Shown: piece after piece, positions 24,989 to 36,999 of the stretch
Numbering within the stretch: position 1 is the stretch's first letter
Layout of the letters: every line of letters begins with the position of its first letter
Assembly: GCF_014189455.1 (NCBI RefSeq)
Contig: NZ_CP050296.1
Location: 372,001-436,000, forward strand
Length of the DNA: 64,000 bases
Reading direction: 5' to 3'
From: Mesorhizobium huakuii
GTDB lineage: Bacteria; Pseudomonadota; Alphaproteobacteria; Rhizobiales; Rhizobiaceae
The notes under the pieces: model-generated
The model's input: only the letters and a program-made list of their open reading frames with translations
The model's database searches: none
What the model was told of the DNA's origin: nothing
Program-made: the position numbers and the translations under genes

Positions 24989-26037
24989 CAGAAACCTCCC
25001 GTATCGACGGCGAGCACACAGTCGCCGCCCCTGGAGGCGATGAACAGCTGGCCGTCCTTTTCCGCCACGCTGCAAATGCCGTGGCGCGTGCCGTTGGCGC
25101 GGCTGTGCAGGCTGAATTGCGGCTGCATTTTTGGATCGAGCCTGACCACGAGACCATAGGAGCGGCTCGGCGACCATGGCTTGTGGATGCCCATGGTGCG
25201 GATGCCGCCGCATTGCAGCGGTTCGAGGAAGCTGCGGCTGGAGGCCAGCGTCGGCGCGATCCAATAGGCCGGCGGCACTTGGTCGATCATGTCGCGCCGG
25301 TAATGCGTTTCCTGCAGCACGAATTCGATCAGCCGGTTGCGCGGCGCGAACAGGGTCAGCCATGCCCCGCCATCGCCGGCCGGCGCCAGCCGCGCCGGAT
25401 AGCCGGGCAGATGCGTCAGCACCGTCGAGCGATTGCCTGTCACGCCGTCGAAACGGATGAGCTGATGGCGCCAGCTTTCGCTCACCAGCACATCCTTGCC
25501 CACGGGATGGAGCCCATAGGGAAAAGCGAGATCGCCGGCCACCTTGCGGAATTCGCCGCCTGCCACGTCCCGTTTCCAAAGCGAACCGGACGCGCCCTTC
25601 TTCATCAGATCCGCAGCCCATTGCGATGGCGCGTGCTCAGCTGACCCGTTGGCCAGCCACAGCGTGCCGTCCTCGGCATAGGCGAGCGCGGTGATGCAGC
25701 GGATATCAGCGGGCAGCGGAATCTCCTTGTCGCCGACCAGCAGCTTGCCGCTTTCCAGCCCAACCGTGAGCTCGCCCAACGGCGACAATGCCAGTGCCGT
25801 GATCGGGGACGGAAAGGTCTCAACAATTTTGGGCTCGGTTCCAGCGGCAAGCGAATAGACGGCGTTGCCGCTGGATGCCAGCAGCCGATCCCCAGAGACC
25901 AGCAGATTGTCCGGCTCGGTCAGTTCGGCAAATGCTGGCGCATCATCGAGCCGTGTGTTCGGACGAAAAGCGCCATCGAGCGGCGGGATGGTGACGGCCC
26001 TGCCGCGAAACATATCCAGGATCGGATCGAGGATCAT
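24988..26037 (-). CDS. SMP-30/strictosidine-synthase-like beta-propeller protein
   Basis: A 349-aa protein with repeated propeller blades (ITALALSPLGELTVG, ITALAYAEDGTLWLANG, FPYGLHPVGKDVLVSESWRH, HLPGYPARLAPAGDGGAWL). No signal peptide is seen. ATG 26037 overlaps the stop of the upstream fusion gene and has GGGGAG before it. Members of this fold hydrolyse lactones or similar esters with a divalent metal. It resembles the propeller fused to the permease, so the two could act on successive forms of the same imported compound. The catalytic residues are less clear here than in the fused copy. Confidence 0.8.
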   Translation of the reverse strand: MILDPILDMFRGRAVTIPPLDGAFRPNTRLDDAPAFAELTEPDNLLVSGDRLLASSGNAVYSLAAGTEPKIVETFPSPITALALSPLGELTVGLESGKLLVGDKEIPLPADIRCITALAYAEDGTLWLANGSAEHAPSQWAADLMKKGASGSLWKRDVAGGEFRKVAGDLAFPYGLHPVGKDVLVSESWRHQLIRFDGVTGNRSTVLTHLPGYPARLAPAGDGGAWLTLFAPRNRLIEFVLQETHYRRDMIDQVPPAYWIAPTLASSRSFLEPLQCGGIRTMGIHKPWSPSRSYGLVVRLDPKMQPQFSLHSRANGTRHGICSVAEKDGQLFIASRGGDCVLAVDTGGF

Positions 26038-28157
26038 GGCTTTGCTCCCCAATAGGAAGCAGGGCTGGTCCAGTTCGGGTCGGCGCCTGATATCCTGTAG
26101 CGGCCGATGCGGTTGTTGAGGATGCCGCCGACGAACAGATATCCCTTGTGTTCACGCATCGAGGTGACCATCGGATGCGCGTCGCCGGAGAGGTCGCCCA
26201 TCGCCTCGACGATGCCGCCCTTCTCCGTAAATTTCACCACGCCGCCGGTGTTGATGTTGGGGAACAGCCATTCGTCCTGCGGCAGCCGGCGGGTCATGCG
26301 CTTGCGCATGTCAGGGTGGCGCAACGAAAGGTCGAAGCTCGGCGTGCGCATGCCGAGCCACGCCATCCAGTAATTGCCGTCCGACGCCCGGTTGATGTTG
26401 TCGGGATAGCCCGGCATGTCGCGGATGACGCATTCGGCGGTGCCGGCCTTCGGCCCATCCAGCCAGTAGCGATGCACGCGGCAGGCCCAGCTTTCGGCGA
26501 AGAACAGCGACTTGCCGTCATGCGCCATGCACACGCCGTTGGTGTAGCGGTAGCCATCGAGCAGCGTCTTCGTCGAGCCATCCTTCGGGTCGTAGACCAG
26601 CAGCCGGCCGGTGGCGCGGTTTTCGATGGAGTCCAGTGCCCAGTCATGGGCGTCATAGCGCTTGGTCGAGTCGGTGAAGTAGATGCGGCCATCGGGCGCG
26701 ATGTCGCAGTCATTGGGATCGCGCAGCCGCGCATCGTCGACGATCGAGGTCCAGGAGCGCGCAGTCTCGGCCGAGAGACGTCTCACCTCACGCTGTGGCG
26801 AGACGGAATAGAGCCCCATGGCGCCGACGCAGCTGATCAGATTGCCCGATTTGTCGAAGGCGAGCCCCAGCGGGAAGCCGCCAATATGGGCAAAGACTTC
26901 CGACTTGACGTAATCCGGCGCGAAGAAGCGGACGATCTCGCCATGGCGGGTGCCGCAATAGAGATGGTCGTCGCGGTCGAGGATGACGTCTTCCGGCCCT
27001 TCCAGCTCGCCGAGCCCGATGTGGTCCGCCGCCGACAGCCGGTTGTCGAGTTCGTAAGGCGTCCCGGAGCCCGGCACCGCCGACTGCGTCTCACCCATCT
27101 TGAGATAGACCGGCGCGACATAGACTTCGTTGAGCACCTTATGGCGGTTCTTCAGCCAGCGGATGTCGATGGTCACCGCCACCGCCAGCATGATGCCGAG
27201 CACCATCTGGTTGGTGCCGGTGCCGTAGCCCAGCCGGATCAGCCCGTTGGTCATGGTCAGCACGATGATGGCGCCCATCAGCCCCTTGATCACCGAGCCG
27301 CGGCCGCCGCCGAGGCTGACGCCGCCGACCACCGCCGCCGTCAGCGCCATGATCTCGAGGTTGAGGCCGGTGCCCGGCCCTGCCCCGCTCAGCCGGCAGG
27401 CGATGAGGAAGCCGCCGATCGAAGCGCAGAAGCCGGAGAAGACATAGGTCATGAACACGGTTCGGCGCACGCGGATGCCGGCATTGTGGGCCGAGCGCCG
27501 GGAGCCGCCAACCGCCAGCACATGCCAGCCGGGCCGCGAGCGCGTCAGCGCGATATGGGTGATGATGGCGAGGATGATCGCCAGCCAGACAGAGACCGAC
27601 AGGCCCCAGAAGGTGCTGTCGCCGATGAAATCGAGCACATCAGATGTGGCGGTCGAAAGCTGCACGTCGGCGGCGTAGGTGGTGACGAGGATATCGAACA
27701 GCGCCCGTCCGAAGATGAAGGTGACCAGCGTGGTGAGAAAGGCGCGCAGGCGCAGGTACCCAACGAGATAGCCATTGATGGCACCGAAGACGAGGCCGGT
27801 GGCGAGCGAGGCGGCCAGCGCCAGCCAGATCGACTGTTCGAGGATGAAGAAGACATAGACGGCGGAAAAGCACGACAGCGCGAAGATCGAGCCGACGGAG
27901 AGATCGATGCCGCCGCCCAGCATCACCACCGTCATGCCGGTGACCACCATCGAGAATTCGCCGAGCTGGCGGGTCGATTCCTGCAGCGCGTTCAGCTTGA
28001 AGAAGCCCGGAATGATCGAGCCGAAACTCGCCAATGTCACCACCAGCGCCAGGAACGGAATGGCGTTGTCGGTCCAGCGTTTGGTCAGGATCTCGCCGAC
28101 CAGATGGTCGGGCACGAGATTGTAGCGCCAGGACTGGAGGCGTTCGCGAAAGGACAT
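26034..28157 (-). CDS. Fusion: CUT2 sugar permease plus SMP-30/gluconolactonase-like domain
   Basis: One continuous frame of 707 aa. Residues about 1-335 are a ribose-type permease (VVTGMTVVMLGGGIDLSVGS, then WHVLAVGGSRRSAHNAGI and VGGVSLGGGRGSVIKG). After a linker, residues about 375-700 form a beta-propeller with SMP-30/strictosidine-synthase motifs: GPEDVILDRDDHLYCG, RDPNDCDIAPDGRIYFTD, YTNGVCMAHDGKSLFFAES, MPGYPDNINRASDGNYW. Both parts look intact. CUT2 permeases end in the cytoplasm, so the propeller should sit at the inner mouth of the channel. The ATG at 28157 is chosen because a GTG at 28205 falls inside a hairpin. Confidence 0.9.
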   Translation of the reverse strand: MSFRERLQSWRYNLVPDHLVGEILTKRWTDNAIPFLALVVTLASFGSIIPGFFKLNALQESTRQLGEFSMVVTGMTVVMLGGGIDLSVGSIFALSCFSAVYVFFILEQSIWLALAASLATGLVFGAINGYLVGYLRLRAFLTTLVTFIFGRALFDILVTTYAADVQLSTATSDVLDFIGDSTFWGLSVSVWLAIILAIITHIALTRSRPGWHVLAVGGSRRSAHNAGIRVRRTVFMTYVFSGFCASIGGFLIACRLSGAGPGTGLNLEIMALTAAVVGGVSLGGGRGSVIKGLMGAIIVLTMTNGLIRLGYGTGTNQMVLGIMLAVAVTIDIRWLKNRHKVLNEVYVAPVYLKMGETQSAVPGSGTPYELDNRLSAADHIGLGELEGPEDVILDRDDHLYCGTRHGEIVRFFAPDYVKSEVFAHIGGFPLGLAFDKSGNLISCVGAMGLYSVSPQREVRRLSAETARSWTSIVDDARLRDPNDCDIAPDGRIYFTDSTKRYDAHDWALDSIENRATGRLLVYDPKDGSTKTLLDGYRYTNGVCMAHDGKSLFFAESWACRVHRYWLDGPKAGTAECVIRDMPGYPDNINRASDGNYWMAWLGMRTPSFDLSLRHPDMRKRMTRRLPQDEWLFPNINTGGVVKFTEKGGIVEAMGDLSGDAHPMVTSMREHKGYLFVGGILNNRIGRYRISGADPNWTSPASYWGAKP

Positions 28158-28180
28158 TGGCTGCCGTTGCTTAAGAGAAA

Positions 28181-28208
28181 GAGGTGGCCGAACTGATCCG
28201 GCCACCTC
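28181..28208 (-). other. Intercistronic stem-loop after the binding-protein gene
   Basis: Arms GAGGTGGCCG (28181-28190) and CGGCCACCTC (28199-28208) pair perfectly, and on the minus strand TTTCTCTT follows. It lies 25 bp past the binding-protein stop and 24 bp before the fusion gene. Partial termination here would make binding protein in excess over membrane subunits, a common arrangement in ABC operons. Confidence 0.7.
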
Positions 28209-32035: not shown

Positions 32036-32155
32036 GTCGGTCCGGTTTGAACAGCATTTAGCCGGCAGCGTCCAGACACAGCGCAACAAACTTTCGTGTC
32101 GCGTCGTGGCCTGCTATGGGATGCACGGGGCGACCGAGGAAAGTACGCGCATAAA

Positions 32156-33157
32156 ATGAAGCCCATTTATATCGACTATCTCAATGCCCTCGACATCGAA
32201 GCGCTAGATATGACCGATGGCGAAATCATCGCCGCCGTCGAGGCGGGCCTGGTCGCCCAGGGCAAGGGCCAGACGGTAATCGAGCCGCGCGTGCATCTCG
32301 AACCGGACCCATCCTTCCACGGCCATTTCAATGTTCTGCGCGGCTATGTGGCGCCGCTCGACACGGCGGGCGTGAAGATCGTCGGCGACTATGTCGACAA
32401 TTATCTGCACGGCCTGCCCTCGGAATTCGGTATCCTCAATTTGTTCGATCCGCGCACCGGCACGCCGCGTGCCATCCTTGACGCCACCGTCATCACCGAC
32501 ATGCGCACCGGCGCCGTCACCGCCATAGGCGCCAAGCATCTGGCGCGCAAGAATTCGAAGGTGCTGGCCCATATCGGCGCGCGCGGCACTGCCTATTGGA
32601 ACGTGCGGCTGCTCGACCATCTCTTCGATTTCGACGAGATCCGCGTCCATTCGCGCCGCCCGGAAAGCCGCGACGGCTTTGCCGCCAAACTCTCCACCGA
32701 TCTTGGCAAGAAGGTTACGGCCGTGGTCGACTGGGAGAGCTGCGTCAAGGGCGCCGACATCGTCGTCGAGGCCTCGCGTCTGCCGGAGCCGCAGCCGCTG
32801 CTCAAGACCGAATGGGTCAAGCCCGGCGCGCTGGTCGTGCCCTATGGCACGATGAGCGCGGTGGAGTTGTCGCTGACCGACATCATGCAGAAGATGGTCG
32901 TTGACGACTGGGGCCAGTGCAAGGGCGGCAAGTTCGGCTCGCTGCGCGCCCATGTCGAGACCGGACGGCTGAGCGAGACGACGCTGCACGCCGAACTCGG
33001 CCAGATCGCCGCCGGCCTCAAATCCGGGCGTGAGAGCGACGACGAGACCATCCTGTTCTGGCATCGCGGCCTGTCGCTCTCCGATATTGCGCTGGGCAAG
33101 GCGATGCTGGCCAAGGCAGGGGAAAAAGGCATCGGCCAGAGGCTGCGTTTCGCATGA
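32156..33157 (+). CDS. Ornithine cyclodeaminase / mu-crystallin family protein
   Basis: A 333-aa NAD(P)-binding protein. The opening YIDYLNALDIEAL, the substrate loop GVKIVGDYVDNYLHGLPS, LDATVITDMRTGAVTAIGAKHLARKNSKVLAHIGARG (Rossmann entry) and the late KPGALVVPYGTMSAVELSL match the family. These enzymes include ornithine cyclodeaminase, ketimine reductases and ectoine-pathway dehydrogenases. The ATG at 32156 lies in a poor ribosome-binding context. Its stop overlaps the start of the ammonia-lyase-like gene by 4 bp (ATGA), so the two act together; an amine/imine step on the lyase substrate or product is likely. Confidence 0.88.
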   Translation: MKPIYIDYLNALDIEALDMTDGEIIAAVEAGLVAQGKGQTVIEPRVHLEPDPSFHGHFNVLRGYVAPLDTAGVKIVGDYVDNYLHGLPSEFGILNLFDPRTGTPRAILDATVITDMRTGAVTAIGAKHLARKNSKVLAHIGARGTAYWNVRLLDHLFDFDEIRVHSRRPESRDGFAAKLSTDLGKKVTAVVDWESCVKGADIVVEASRLPEPQPLLKTEWVKPGALVVPYGTMSAVELSLTDIMQKMVVDDWGQCKGGKFGSLRAHVETGRLSETTLHAELGQIAAGLKSGRESDDETILFWHRGLSLSDIALGKAMLAKAGEKGIGQRLRFA

Positions 33158-34662
33158 GCGCGCTCGTCCTCACCGGAGCCGGTGTCGGCACTGGCGATGT
33201 CGCCGCCGTCGCCCGCGAAACGCGCAGGGTGGAGATCGGACCCGAAATCATCGCCAGGCTGGAGAAGGCGCGAAAAGTGCTCGACCAAGCCGCTGCCTCC
33301 GGCCAGCAGATCTATGGCCTGAACACCGGGCTCGGCGCCAATCTTGGCACCTCCGTCGAAGGCGACGCCAGCGCCTTCCAGCGTCAGTTGCTGGAGGGCC
33401 GCAGCGGCGCGGTCGGCGAAACCCTGCCGGTCGAGACCGTGCGGGCCACCATGGTCGCCCGCGCCTCGATGCTGTCGGCCGGCGGCTCCGGCCTGTCGCC
33501 CGCCGTGTTCGTCGCGCTGGTCGATGCGCTCAATGCCGGCGTCCATCCGGTGATGCCGTCGCTCGGCTCGATTGGCGCCGGCGACCTCGTGCTGATGACC
33601 GCGCTTGCCCGGCTGCTGATTGGCGAAGGCGAAGCCGAGTACCAGGGCCGCCGCATGCCGGCGGCCAAGGCACTGATGATGGCCCGCCTCGCCCCGATCA
33701 GCCTGGCGCCGAAAGATGGACTGTCGCTGATCAACGCCTCGGCGGTCTCCGCCGGCAGCGGTGCCCTCGCGATAACGGATACGCTGTCGGCGCTGGCCCA
33801 GCAGCAGCAGGCCGGCGCGCTGACCATGGAAGGATTTGGCGCCAACCGCACCATCCTCGATCCGCGCCTGCAGATGGCGCGGCCGGCCGCCGGACAGCAG
33901 GAGGCGGCGAAAGCCCTACACGACCTTCTCGCCCGCGACGAGATGCCGGCGCCCACCACCTTGCAAGACCCGTTGTCGATCCGCTGCATGCCGTCGATCC
34001 ATGGCGCGCTGATCGAGGCGATCGGCCAGGCAAAACGCGCCGTCGAGATCGAACTCAACGCCGCCGCCGACAACCCGCTGGTGCTGGGCGATGACGAACT
34101 GGTGATGTCGACCGGCAATTTCCATACGGCGTCGCTCTCGCTGGCTTTCGAAACACTCAGCCTGGCGATCGCGCAATGTGCCGCCGCGAGCGTCGCCCGC
34201 TTCATCCAGCTCACCGGTTCGGGCCGCAACGGCCTGACCAAATACCTGTCGCCCATCGGTGGCGCGTCGGCCGGTTTCGTGCCGCTGCAGAAGACGGCGA
34301 CATCAATTCTGGCCGCCATCCGCCACAAGGCCAATCCGGTGATGCTCGACTTCCTGCCCGTTTCGGAAGGCGTCGAGGACCACGCGACCCAGTCGCTGCT
34401 CGCTGTTTCGAAATGCGCCGGGATGATCGCGCTGTGGCGACGGCTGATCGCCTTTGAATTGATGGCCGCCGCCCAGGCCGTCGACCTGCGTGAAGGGTTG
34501 ACGCTCGCACCACGCACCGGCGCGATCTATGCGGCGGTGCGCGCGCATGTATCGATGCTGAAGGACGACCGGCCGCTGGGGGCCGACGCCGAGGTGCTCC
34601 ACGCCATGCTTGCCAATGGAGCGTGGCGAGGCACTGCGACAGTCGGCAAAGAAGCCGAATAA
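33154..34662 (+). CDS. HAL/PAL-family ammonia-lyase homologue lacking the MIO triad
   Basis: A 502-aa member of the histidine/phenylalanine ammonia-lyase family. The catalytic Tyr54 in YGLNTGLG and downstream motifs SLINASAVSAGSGALAI, QDPLSIRCMPSIHG, AADNPLV and GNFHTASLSLAFE are retained. The active-site loop, however, reads HPVMPSLGSIGAGDL (residues 131-145) where the family has GSVGASGDL: the Ala-Ser-Gly that cyclises to the MIO cofactor lacks its serine. The spacing on both sides is otherwise exact, so this is a one-residue deletion, not misalignment. The enzyme cannot use the normal MIO chemistry. It is coupled to the ornithine-cyclodeaminase-like gene and ends without a gap against the convergent PanB-like gene. 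Confidence 0.9.
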   Translation: MSALVLTGAGVGTGDVAAVARETRRVEIGPEIIARLEKARKVLDQAAASGQQIYGLNTGLGANLGTSVEGDASAFQRQLLEGRSGAVGETLPVETVRATMVARASMLSAGGSGLSPAVFVALVDALNAGVHPVMPSLGSIGAGDLVLMTALARLLIGEGEAEYQGRRMPAAKALMMARLAPISLAPKDGLSLINASAVSAGSGALAITDTLSALAQQQQAGALTMEGFGANRTILDPRLQMARPAAGQQEAAKALHDLLARDEMPAPTTLQDPLSIRCMPSIHGALIEAIGQAKRAVEIELNAAADNPLVLGDDELVMSTGNFHTASLSLAFETLSLAIAQCAAASVARFIQLTGSGRNGLTKYLSPIGGASAGFVPLQKTATSILAAIRHKANPVMLDFLPVSEGVEDHATQSLLAVSKCAGMIALWRRLIAFELMAAAQAVDLREGLTLAPRTGAIYAAVRAHVSMLKDDRPLGADAEVLHAMLANGAWRGTATVGKEAE

Positions 34663-35465
34663 TCAGCTCTTTGCGTCTACCCTTTTCATGAACAGGCTGA
34701 GCTCGGCCGGATCCATGTGCACGATGTGCCTGTCCTCGGGATAGGCGCCGCTGTTGACGTCGGCGACATATTCCGAGAAGGCCGCCACCCGCTCCGCCTG
34801 CAGCCGGTCATACTCGGCGGCGAAATTGCGGTAGACCTTGAGTGGCGCGGCATGTGGCCCCGGTTCTGGCCAAGGATGTCGTCGGCGAACAGATATTGCG
34901 CGTCGCAGCCGGTGCCCGCCCCCATCGACAGCATGATCAGCGAGGTGCGTTCCGAGATCGCCTTGGCCACCTCGACCGGCACCACTTCGATCTCGGCGCC
35001 GATGGCGCCGGCGGCCTCCAGCTGCTTCACCGCCTCGAACACCTGGAGGGCTGTGTCGGCGGTCTTGCCGACCGCCTTGAAGCCGCCGGTCCAGGTGGCG
35101 CGGGACGGAATGAGGCCGACATGGCCGATGACGGGGATGGCGTCTTCGGCCATACGCTTGATCGTGGCATAGCCGGCGCTGCAATAGACCGCGTCGGCGC
35201 TCGCCTTGTAGAGCCGGAAGGCCCAGCGCACGAAATCATCCGCCGTGCCGATCTCGAAGAAGTTTTCGCCCGGCATTGTGAAAAGGCTGGGCGCCGCATC
35301 GCGGTACTGCGGGTTGAGCACAAGTTCGGGCGGCACTGAGACTATGTCGACCCCTGCCCGTTCGGCGGCCTCCGCCTCGTCCAGGTTGAGCACGCGCAGC
35401 ATGGTCAGCTGGCGCTTGCCCTTCATCGCGCGCAGATCGGCGACGGTCGGTCTCTTTCGGCTCAT
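34663..35465 (-). pseudogene. PanB-like (ketopantoate hydroxymethyltransferase family) protein, frameshifted near its C-terminus
   Basis: The frame from ATG 35465 gives a PEP-mutase-fold TIM barrel with PanB landmarks PVIGHVGLIPS, GGFKAVGKT, EIEVVPVEVAKAI, GAGTGCDAQYLFADDILG. After ...GHMPRH the frame shifts: KVYRNFAAEYDRLQAERVAAF...VDAKS continues in another frame, so one base is missing near 34841. Joined, it is about 267 aa, the normal size. By hand alignment to E. coli PanB the three Mg ligands are replaced (GDS by VPP, LAD by TMP, KIEGG by YCSAG) while the catalytic Glu in EIEVVP remains. It is therefore unlikely to be a true PanB. It lies 40 bp behind the MocE-type ferredoxin. Confidence 0.85.
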
Positions 35466-35505
35466 CAAAACGTCCCCTCTGTGATGCTGGATCGAGTTCC
35501 ACGCG

Positions 35506-35817
35506 TCAAATCTGGATCATCACCTTACCGGCCTCGATCTTCACCGGATAGGTCGCGAGATTGACGCAGACCGGCGCGCCCTTGGCTTGGCCAGTCTTGT
35601 AGTTGAAGCGGCCATTGTGTTTCGGACATTCGATGATGTCGTCCATCACCAGCCCGTCGGCCAGATGCGCCTTCTCGTGCGTGCAATAGCCGTCGGTGGC
35701 GAAGAACTCGTCATCCGGCGAGCGGTAGACCGCGAAGGTGCGGCCGCCATGATCGAAGCGGATGACGTCCTCTGCCTCGACGTCGTCCACCGTGCACGCT
35801 TCAACCCAATCGGCCAT
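35506..35817 (-). CDS. mocE: MocE-family Rieske 2Fe-2S ferredoxin
   Basis: A 103-aa soluble Rieske protein with both cluster motifs, CTH at 45-47 and CPKHNG at 64-69. It hands electrons to an oxygenase. The upstream neighbour, 14 bp away, is a membrane desaturase/hydroxylase of the MocD type; MocD and MocE of Sinorhizobium meliloti belong to rhizopine (3-O-methyl-scyllo-inosamine) catabolism, where they are thought to remove the O-methyl group. The symbol denotes family membership only. Confidence 0.88.
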   Translation of the reverse strand: MADWVEACTVDDVEAEDVIRFDHGGRTFAVYRSPDDEFFATDGYCTHEKAHLADGLVMDDIIECPKHNGRFNYKTGQAKGAPVCVNLATYPVKIEAGKVMIQI

Positions 35818-35831
35818 CCCGGTCTCCTCAG

Positions 35832-36923
35832 CTATTCAGCCGCCGCCGACATATCGACCTCGTGGAACTCGCCGCGATAGGGCCTGGCCGTCGGCGGCAG
35901 TTCGCGCTTGAGATAAAAATCCTCGTATTTCAGCTGCCGCAGCAGCACCGGCCAGACCTCGCGATAGGCATGCCACATTGACGGGTTCGGCTCGGGCAGA
36001 TCGTGCTTGATCAGTTCATGCAGCCTGGGCAGTGCGTGATACGGCACCATCGGGAACATGTGATGCTCGACATGATAATTCATGTTCCAGTAGATGAACC
36101 GGCTGATCGGGTTCATGTAGACGGTGCGGGTGTTGAGCCGGTGGTCGACGACATTGTCGGCGAGCCCGATATGCTGCAGCAGGCCGGTCGTCACCATGTG
36201 CCAGGTGCCATAGAGGCGCGGCAGACCGATCAGCACCAGCGGCACCCATGATCGCAGCACGACCGCAAGCGCGATCGTGACGATATAGATGGCGACGTGC
36301 CAGCGGGCGGCGACCACCGCCTTGTGCTGTTCCATCTCGGGGATGTAGCTCTTCTCGTCGTCCGACAGCGTGCCAAAGGCCTGGCGCACCAGCGTCGGCA
36401 GCGAATAGCGGAAATCGAGAATGCCGGTGAAGGCCAGCGCCGCCTTCAACAGGTCGGGCGGACGCATGACGGCGATCTCGGCGTCGCGGCCGACGATGAT
36501 GGTGTCGGTGTGGTGGCGGGCATGGCTCCAGCGCCATTGCACGGGATTGCGCATCAGCATGAAGGAGGCGATGTGGTAGACGACATCGTTCATCCAGCGC
36601 GTGCGGAACGCCGTGCCGTGGCCGCATTCATGCCAGCGCGAGTCACTCGACGAGCCGTAGAGCACGCCATAGACGAACAGAAACGGCACCATCCACCAAG
36701 AGCCCCAGAACCAGACGATGCCGGCGGCCGAACCCACGATGACAGCGAGCCAGATGATGGTGTCGCGGATCGCTGGACCGTCCGAGCGCTGCATAAGCTC
36801 CTTCATCGCCTTGCGCGGCACGTCGGTGTGATACCACTCGGCCGAGGCAAGTCCGGTCTCGATCGCGGCCCGCGTGCTTTCGCCGACCAGGCTGTAATCG
36901 CGCTTTTTTGCCATCGTCGTCAC
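35832..36923 (-). CDS. Fatty acid desaturase-type membrane di-iron oxygenase (MocD-like)
   Basis: A 363-aa membrane protein with the three histidine boxes of the family: HECGH (about residue 98), HARHH (about 134) and HVEHH (about 281), between pairs of membrane segments (IIWLAVIVGSAAGIVWFWG; WHVAIYIVTIALAVVL). These ligate a di-iron centre that desaturates, hydroxylates or demethylates with O2. GTG 36923 has GGAGG five bases before it; ATG 36914 is an alternative. It is followed by its likely ferredoxin MocE and the PanB-like gene. Substrate unknown. Confidence 0.9.
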   Translation of the reverse strand: MTTMAKKRDYSLVGESTRAAIETGLASAEWYHTDVPRKAMKELMQRSDGPAIRDTIIWLAVIVGSAAGIVWFWGSWWMVPFLFVYGVLYGSSSDSRWHECGHGTAFRTRWMNDVVYHIASFMLMRNPVQWRWSHARHHTDTIIVGRDAEIAVMRPPDLLKAALAFTGILDFRYSLPTLVRQAFGTLSDDEKSYIPEMEQHKAVVAARWHVAIYIVTIALAVVLRSWVPLVLIGLPRLYGTWHMVTTGLLQHIGLADNVVDHRLNTRTVYMNPISRFIYWNMNYHVEHHMFPMVPYHALPRLHELIKHDLPEPNPSMWHAYREVWPVLLRQLKYEDFYLKRELPPTARPYRGEFHEVDMSAAAE

Positions 36924-36999
36924 ATCGACCTCCAATCGTCATGCACCGCTGGCAATCCGGTTCGCCGGCCGGAGGGCTTGCTTTGGATAAATGTGTCAC

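Follow-up and report, generated by a model that had tools for sequence, protein, structure and literature searches.

A conserved PF00221 lyase without the MIO motif and its ornithine cyclodeaminase-family partner in Mesorhizobium huakuii

Results

A lyase gene and its partner

The window analysed here, a stretch of 64,000 nucleotides of the Mesorhizobium huakuii genome (GCF_014189455.1, contig NZ_CP050296.1, positions 372,001 to 436,000), contains a gene for a PF00221 (Lyase_aromatic) protein that does not have the motif from which the cofactor 4-methylideneimidazole-5-one (MIO) is made. It is preceded on the same strand by a gene of the ornithine cyclodeaminase (OCD) family, and the two overlap by four bases (ATGA) at the lyase start (Table 1). 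The lyase scored 433.1 bits against PF00221 (gathering cut-off 27.3), covering profile positions 4–466 of 466. It did not reach the HutH equivalog (TIGR01225, NCBIfam hutH; 363 bits against a cut-off of 539.15), and was far under the cut-off of every NCBIfam model for aminomutases, phenylalanine ammonia-lyase (PAL) and tyrosine ammonia-lyase (TAL). The partner scored 193.8 bits against PF02423 (cut-off 24) and was below the cut-off of every NCBIfam equivalog listed for it; its nearest PDB entries are those of archaeal alanine dehydrogenase, 1vll and 1omo.

Table 1. Positions of the two genes, the short loop and active-site residues in the window.
Feature	Position	Strand	Remarks
PF00221 lyase without MIO motif, 502 aa, ATG start	33154..34662	+	Pfam 433 bits, cut-off 27.3
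Partner, ornithine cyclodeaminase/mu-crystallin family (PF02423)	32096..33157	+	ATG at 32156 may be the true start
Short loop G138-L145, GSIGAGDL, one residue shorter than GSVGASGDL	33565..33588	+	codons, alignment, pattern search
Tyr54, counterpart of HAL Tyr53	33313..33315	+	kept in 78/78 short-loop rows
Arg83, at the place of HAL/ergothionase His83	33400..33402	+	residue counts
Leu274, at the place of HAL Tyr280	33973..33975	+	residue counts
Arg277, counterpart of HAL Arg283	33982..33984	+	kept in 78/78 short-loop rows
Lys380, common to ergothionase	34291..34293	+	residue counts
Glu408, counterpart of HAL Glu414	34375..34377	+	residue counts

A conserved short loop

In MIO-dependent ammonia-lyases and aminomutases an Ala-Ser-Gly loop cyclises to MIO. 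No such loop was found in the window lyase, where codons GGC TCG ATT GGC GCC GGC GAC CTC read GSIGAGDL, as a sequence-only reading of this DNA had stated, and from which the usual Ala-Ser-Gly MIO cannot be formed. Alignment with the histidine ammonia-lyase (HAL) of P. putida gave a single gap, at the loop, with Tyr54 retained, in agreement with the same reading's claims that the flanking spacing is exact and this tyrosine kept.

A pattern search over 121 proteins (the window protein and the best 120 of its 4289 matches) found the loop one residue short in 120, the remaining protein being unmatched by the pattern. Among 119 Mesorhizobium genomes, 96 matched the lyase at E 1e-90 or better; excluding two that have only a 41%-identical paralogue, 94 carry the gene, the window's own genome included, and two of these match across residues 169/170–494 only. 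This conservation rules out a sequencing error or a local pseudogene. The nearest named matches come from Mesorhizobium, and most of the named proteins among the matches listed are called histidine ammonia-lyase or 'HAL/PAL/TAL family' in databases.

Comparison with ergothionase and canonical HutH

The closest PDB entry by sequence is ergothionase of Treponema denticola (6s7j, E 6.7e-68; also 6s7q), and its loop aligns with that of the window lyase without a gap. The ergothionase structure paper is reportedly that of Maurer in 2019. In an excerpt of one study, ergothionase is described as a characterised PF00221 enzyme without MIO (PMC13405746). An AlphaFold2 model of the window lyase (predicted local distance difference test score 92.3) also had 6s7j as the top Foldseek match (E 1.3e-34, template modelling score 0.94). 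The two proteins are alike in fold, in their one-residue-short, MIO-less loop, in clade, and in their active-site Tyr, Arg, Glu, Lys and Leu. However, they are only about 30% identical and on separate branches, and the window lyase does not have Arg58, His83, Glu142 or Glu324. The sequence-only reading expected chemistry apart from that of all known members of the family; this goes too far, as ergothionase is already MIO-less, with the same loop, leucine and lysine.

With P. putida HAL the window lyase has in common the PF00221 fold and most active-site residues, but it does not have the Ala-Ser-Gly, and His83 is changed to Arg, Tyr280 to Leu and a Val to Lys. It is also unlike the MIO aminomutases and PAL/TAL (3kdz, 3unv), which are MIO-dependent. 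The same genome encodes a separate canonical HutH (GSVGASGDL), which adjoins an imidazolonepropionase-like open reading frame (ORF) and the sole urocanase-family gene; no second urocanase-family gene was found in the genome. As this other hutH is present, the window lyase is not the canonical HutH of its genome.

Active-site residues

Residues were counted in 77 short-loop relatives, 120 ergothionase-type proteins (the best 120 of 766) and 16 canonical rows. The 77 came from 80 loci, the best among 528 stretches confirmed in a scan of species genomes; neither the window protein nor ergothionase is counted among them. Position 143 in the loop was Gly in 51, Ser in 19 and Ala in 6 of the short-loop relatives (with one gap, in a fragment), and Gly in 73 and Ala in 47 of the ergothionase-type proteins. 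Since this residue varies, and the loop of some relatives is A-S-D, with Ser kept and Gly gone, what characterises the family, as judged from these sequences, is the one-residue shortening of the loop and not the absence of serine in itself. The claim that the MIO serine is absent therefore stands as to the one missing residue, but not strictly as to its identity.

Tyr54, Gln271, Arg277 and Glu408 were retained in every full-length short-loop row counted (78/78), and Glu408 in all 77 short-loop, 120 ergothionase-type and 16 canonical rows. We take the HAL counterpart of Tyr54 to be the base; those of Arg277 and Glu408 presumably contact the substrate carboxylate and the imidazole, respectively. 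Several differences from canonical proteins are common to short-loop and ergothionase-type proteins, among them Leu274, Lys380, Glu226, Asn63 and Arg103. Position 274 was Leu in 68, Ile in 6 and Val in 2 of the 77 short-loop rows (1 gap), and Leu in 118 and Ile in 2 of the ergothionase-type proteins, compared to Tyr in 16/16 canonical rows. Lysine occupied position 380 in 77/77 short-loop and 115/120 ergothionase-type rows; the canonical rows had Val (15/16) or Cys (1/16). In a class-level sample of 385 genomes, 8 of 11 short-loop rows had this lysine and 3 did not, so it is not universal in the clade. In the short-loop lyases L190, L192 and L193, which have their own branch in the tree, His or Leu replaces it.

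Other positions separate the two groups. Arg58, His83, Glu142 (in the loop) and Glu324 are near-invariant in ergothionase-type proteins (118, 120, 118 and 118 of 120), and presumably bind the ergothionase substrate. The window lyase has Thr58, Arg83, Ala142 and His324 instead, as do most short-loop relatives (73, 76, 60 and 71 of 77). Position 83 was Arg in all short-loop rows except for one gap, and His in 15 of 16 canonical rows (1 gap). As the window lyase does not have the ergothionase-specific residues, and has Arg83 in place of His83, its substrate is probably different from ergothioneine.

A single short-loop clade

In an order-level sample, all 22 distinct short-loop rows, window protein and ergothionase included, had the lysine and were without HAL Tyr280, while all 11 canonical rows had Ala-Ser-Gly and the Tyr but no lysine. 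A 46-row tree was built with the loop columns and positions 83, 274 and 380 dropped. All 32 short-loop rows, ergothionase included, formed one clade (support 100/99), within which six ergothionase-type rows were sister to the other 26 (99/94); the root was a single outgroup row, L233 (GSVGASGDL), so that the rooting is thin, and PAL and TAL lie outside the sample. In a 72-row tree, a single branch (100/99) set 53 short-loop rows apart from the remaining ones. Sequence, tree and predicted fold together place the window protein in the MIO-less short-loop PF00221 clade that contains ergothionase.

Other PF00221 proteins also depart from the usual loop. The third of the genome (L003, G000:C1:4559208-4560677 (-)) reads GSIGAADL, with His83 kept and the lysine present, and its neighbours in the genus include a class III aminotransferase gene. 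The fourth (L002, G000:C1:5843917-5845317 (-)) has a loop three residues short, GSAGYL. In the tree both L002 and L205 (GSVGYI) fall with the canonical proteins, which suggests a second loss of MIO. L200 (G543) reads GSVGACGDL, with Cys where the MIO serine stands.

The OCD-family gene is a constant partner

An OCD homologue adjoined the lyase in 20/20 regions from 20 genus genomes (lyase identity 78–96%), and the other neighbours varied, for example a major facilitator superfamily gene in 17/20. At the 80 loci, which span Alpha- and Betaproteobacteria, one Granulosicoccaceae and one NC10, neighbours were counted by tblastn, as a simple gene caller overlooks some ORFs or puts them in the wrong frame. 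An OCD homologue was found at 64/80, at 400 bp or less from the lyase in 57/80, and upstream on the same strand in 49/80. These homologues were 51–100% identical (median 79%) to the better-matching of two reference OCD proteins; most lyases outside Mesorhizobium and Phyllobacterium are 32–47% identical to the window lyase. The check that the sequence-only reading had proposed, whether short-loop homologues form a clade with a conserved gene context, thus came out in its favour on both counts.

In the class-level sample, in which up to four candidates were scored per genome, OCD was present in 12/12 genomes with a short-loop lyase (one of them, G708 with L189, counted by score with its loop unread) compared to 15/373 others (Fisher p 9e-16, uncorrected for relatedness). 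In 4 of the 12 the lyase and OCD genes shared a contig at a distance of about 1 kb or less; in 2 they were far apart on one contig, and in 6 they were on different contigs. We infer that the OCD-family protein acts in the catabolic pathway of the lyase. No description of the short-loop proteobacterial branch or its OCD partner was found in open-access full texts, a search that leaves subscription papers mostly outside, and 'ergothio' does not occur in a paper on MIO-enzyme evolution (PMC9002059). By its sequence, the window gene encodes a conserved MIO-less PF00221 lyase, whose constant OCD partner is undescribed as far as the open-access literature shows.

Less constant neighbours

Betaine/choline-type ATP-binding cassette (ABC) transporter proteins (OpuBC/OpuBB-type binding and permease proteins) were found near 16/80 lyases, mostly in Phyllobacterium, whose lyases are 58–61% identical to the window lyase and read GSIGAGDL. 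The Phyllobacterium binding protein matches several quaternary-amine binding proteins, ergothioneine-binding ones included. EgtU-type ergothioneine transport was rejected as a clue here, as one diagnostic position looks different, by our own mapping, which is a weak guide. Other neighbours were homologues of NtaA/DmoA-type flavin mononucleotide-dependent monooxygenases (15/80), Dpp-type binding proteins (13/80), MttB (6/80), dimethylglycine-dehydrogenase-like proteins (6/80, one of these just 28% identical) and homocysteine methyltransferase (3/80). HutU was near 6/80 lyases, and 5/80 had a canonical HutH at their locus; loci with these genes include Roseovarius, Rhodobacteraceae, Paracoccaceae and SAR116. 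At L094 an N-formylglutamate amidohydrolase gene overlaps the lyase start, with HutI-, HutF- and HutH-like genes within about 12 kb.

At L085 and L088 the lyase follows an MttB gene. MttB-type genes are plausible in aerobes, since aerobic marine bacteria use cobalamin-dependent methyltransferases to demethylate glycine betaine (abstract of PMC12478193). The M. huakuii genome has nine MttB-family matches (two are adjacent pieces at 5493411-5494899), but none of the nine lies inside the window, which rules out an MttB adjoining the lyase gene. Own synthesis of ergothioneine or hercynine was also ruled out, as the genome has no match to the EgtD family (PF10017).

Discussion

What reaction might a PF00221 lyase catalyse without MIO? 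MIO turns an amine into a leaving group or helps to free the β-proton. A quaternary amine departs without this help, and the likeliest chemistry would therefore be proton removal by Tyr54 with loss of a methylated amine. We give an even chance to the window protein being a cofactor-free, ergothionase-like lyase that acts on an N-methylated amino acid, perhaps of the histidine type, to free a methylated amine, and to the OCD-family protein working in the same pathway. Tyr54 would abstract the β-proton, Arg277 would hold the carboxylate, Glu408 and nearby residues would polarise the ring, and Lys380, placed in the emptied MIO site, could provide a further acid or charge. The methylated amine, already a good leaving group, would then depart, so that an electrophilic cofactor would not be needed. 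The substrate would be a betaine-type amino acid other than ergothioneine, with histidine betaine (hercynine) the leading candidate, because some relatives in the clade are encoded in histidine-utilisation clusters and the Glu that binds imidazole is retained. Elimination, a methylated leaving group and a histidine-type ring are thus each presumed in this scheme. An MIO-independent elimination, which the sequence-only reading had offered as one option, is the best reading.

Could the protein simply be a true ergothionase that releases trimethylamine from ergothioneine? The common clade, short loop, Lys380 and Leu274, and the top PDB match, all suggest this, and a review places ergothionase in Agrobacterium and other bacteria (PMC7653990). 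We nevertheless think it quite unlikely: Arg58, His83, Glu142 and Glu324 are replaced by Thr, Arg, Ala and His, and in the tree the ergothionase rows branch as a sister group of the others, with the window protein not nested among them. The one urocanase-family gene in the genome is beside hutH, leaving no separate thiourocanate hydratase of that family. Also, in Phyllobacterium the binding protein near an orthologous lyase carries Tyr at a cage position where the EgtU type has Phe (a weak point, by our own mapping; excerpt of PMC9732360). Another, unlikely, possibility is that the amine eliminated carries no methyl group, as with opine-like N-substituted amino acids, and that OCD is an imine/opine-type dehydrogenase acting on the same compound. 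This would account for OCD being the most constant neighbour, for its weak similarity to SbnB and imine reductases, and for the Dpp-type binding proteins; Arg83 could hold an extra carboxylate. However, without MIO an ordinary amine leaves poorly unless the proton is very acidic, and the methyl-group handling genes near some lyases would be left unaccounted for. A bacterial PAL with its MIO serine changed (S153A) lost practically all activity, according to an excerpt of PMC3903478.

Loss of the family cofactor and replacement of one active-site Tyr would also fit a relative that has lost its activity and serves only to bind a ligand. The sequence-only reading had allowed for binding without turnover, but we regard it as very unlikely because the active-site Tyr, Arg, Gln and Glu are kept throughout the full-length short-loop rows; the gene is also widespread in the genus and forms an operon-like pair with an enzyme gene. 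It is scarcely conceivable that MIO is still made, whether out of Ala-Gly-Asp or by means of a serine located elsewhere. The methylidene of MIO comes from Ser, and although the 19 relatives with A-S-D do have a loop Ser, there is none between G141 and D144 in the window loop, and the short loop is common to MIO-less ergothionase.

A wider proposal is that the short-loop branch of proteobacterial aerobes comprises a new class of MIO-independent betaine lyases that form a widespread module with a dedicated OCD-family enzyme for the catabolism of N-methylated aromatic amino acids. We put this forward tentatively, as possible but with clearly less than an even chance. Such a module would feed the histidine pathway and methylated-amine pools, for example from histidine betaine. 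If a methylated-amine lyase is correct, genes that databases name histidine ammonia-lyase would encode another class of enzyme, acting on another substrate. The ergothionase-type MIO-less solution would be old and broad, with a single origin in the sample examined, and paired with a second enzyme. These proteins would also make it possible to test directly under which condition an ammonia-lyase depends on an electrophilic cofactor, namely a poor leaving group.

Other features of the window

On the opposite strand 3′ of the lyase, 34686-36935 (-) encodes a PanB-like protein, a MocE-family ferredoxin and a desaturase-family protein. These genes recall rhizopine (moc) genes; many of the 20 genus regions have them, but some do not. 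At 26034-28205 (-), a single ORF fuses ABC sugar-type permease and strictosidine-synthase/SMP-30-like domains.
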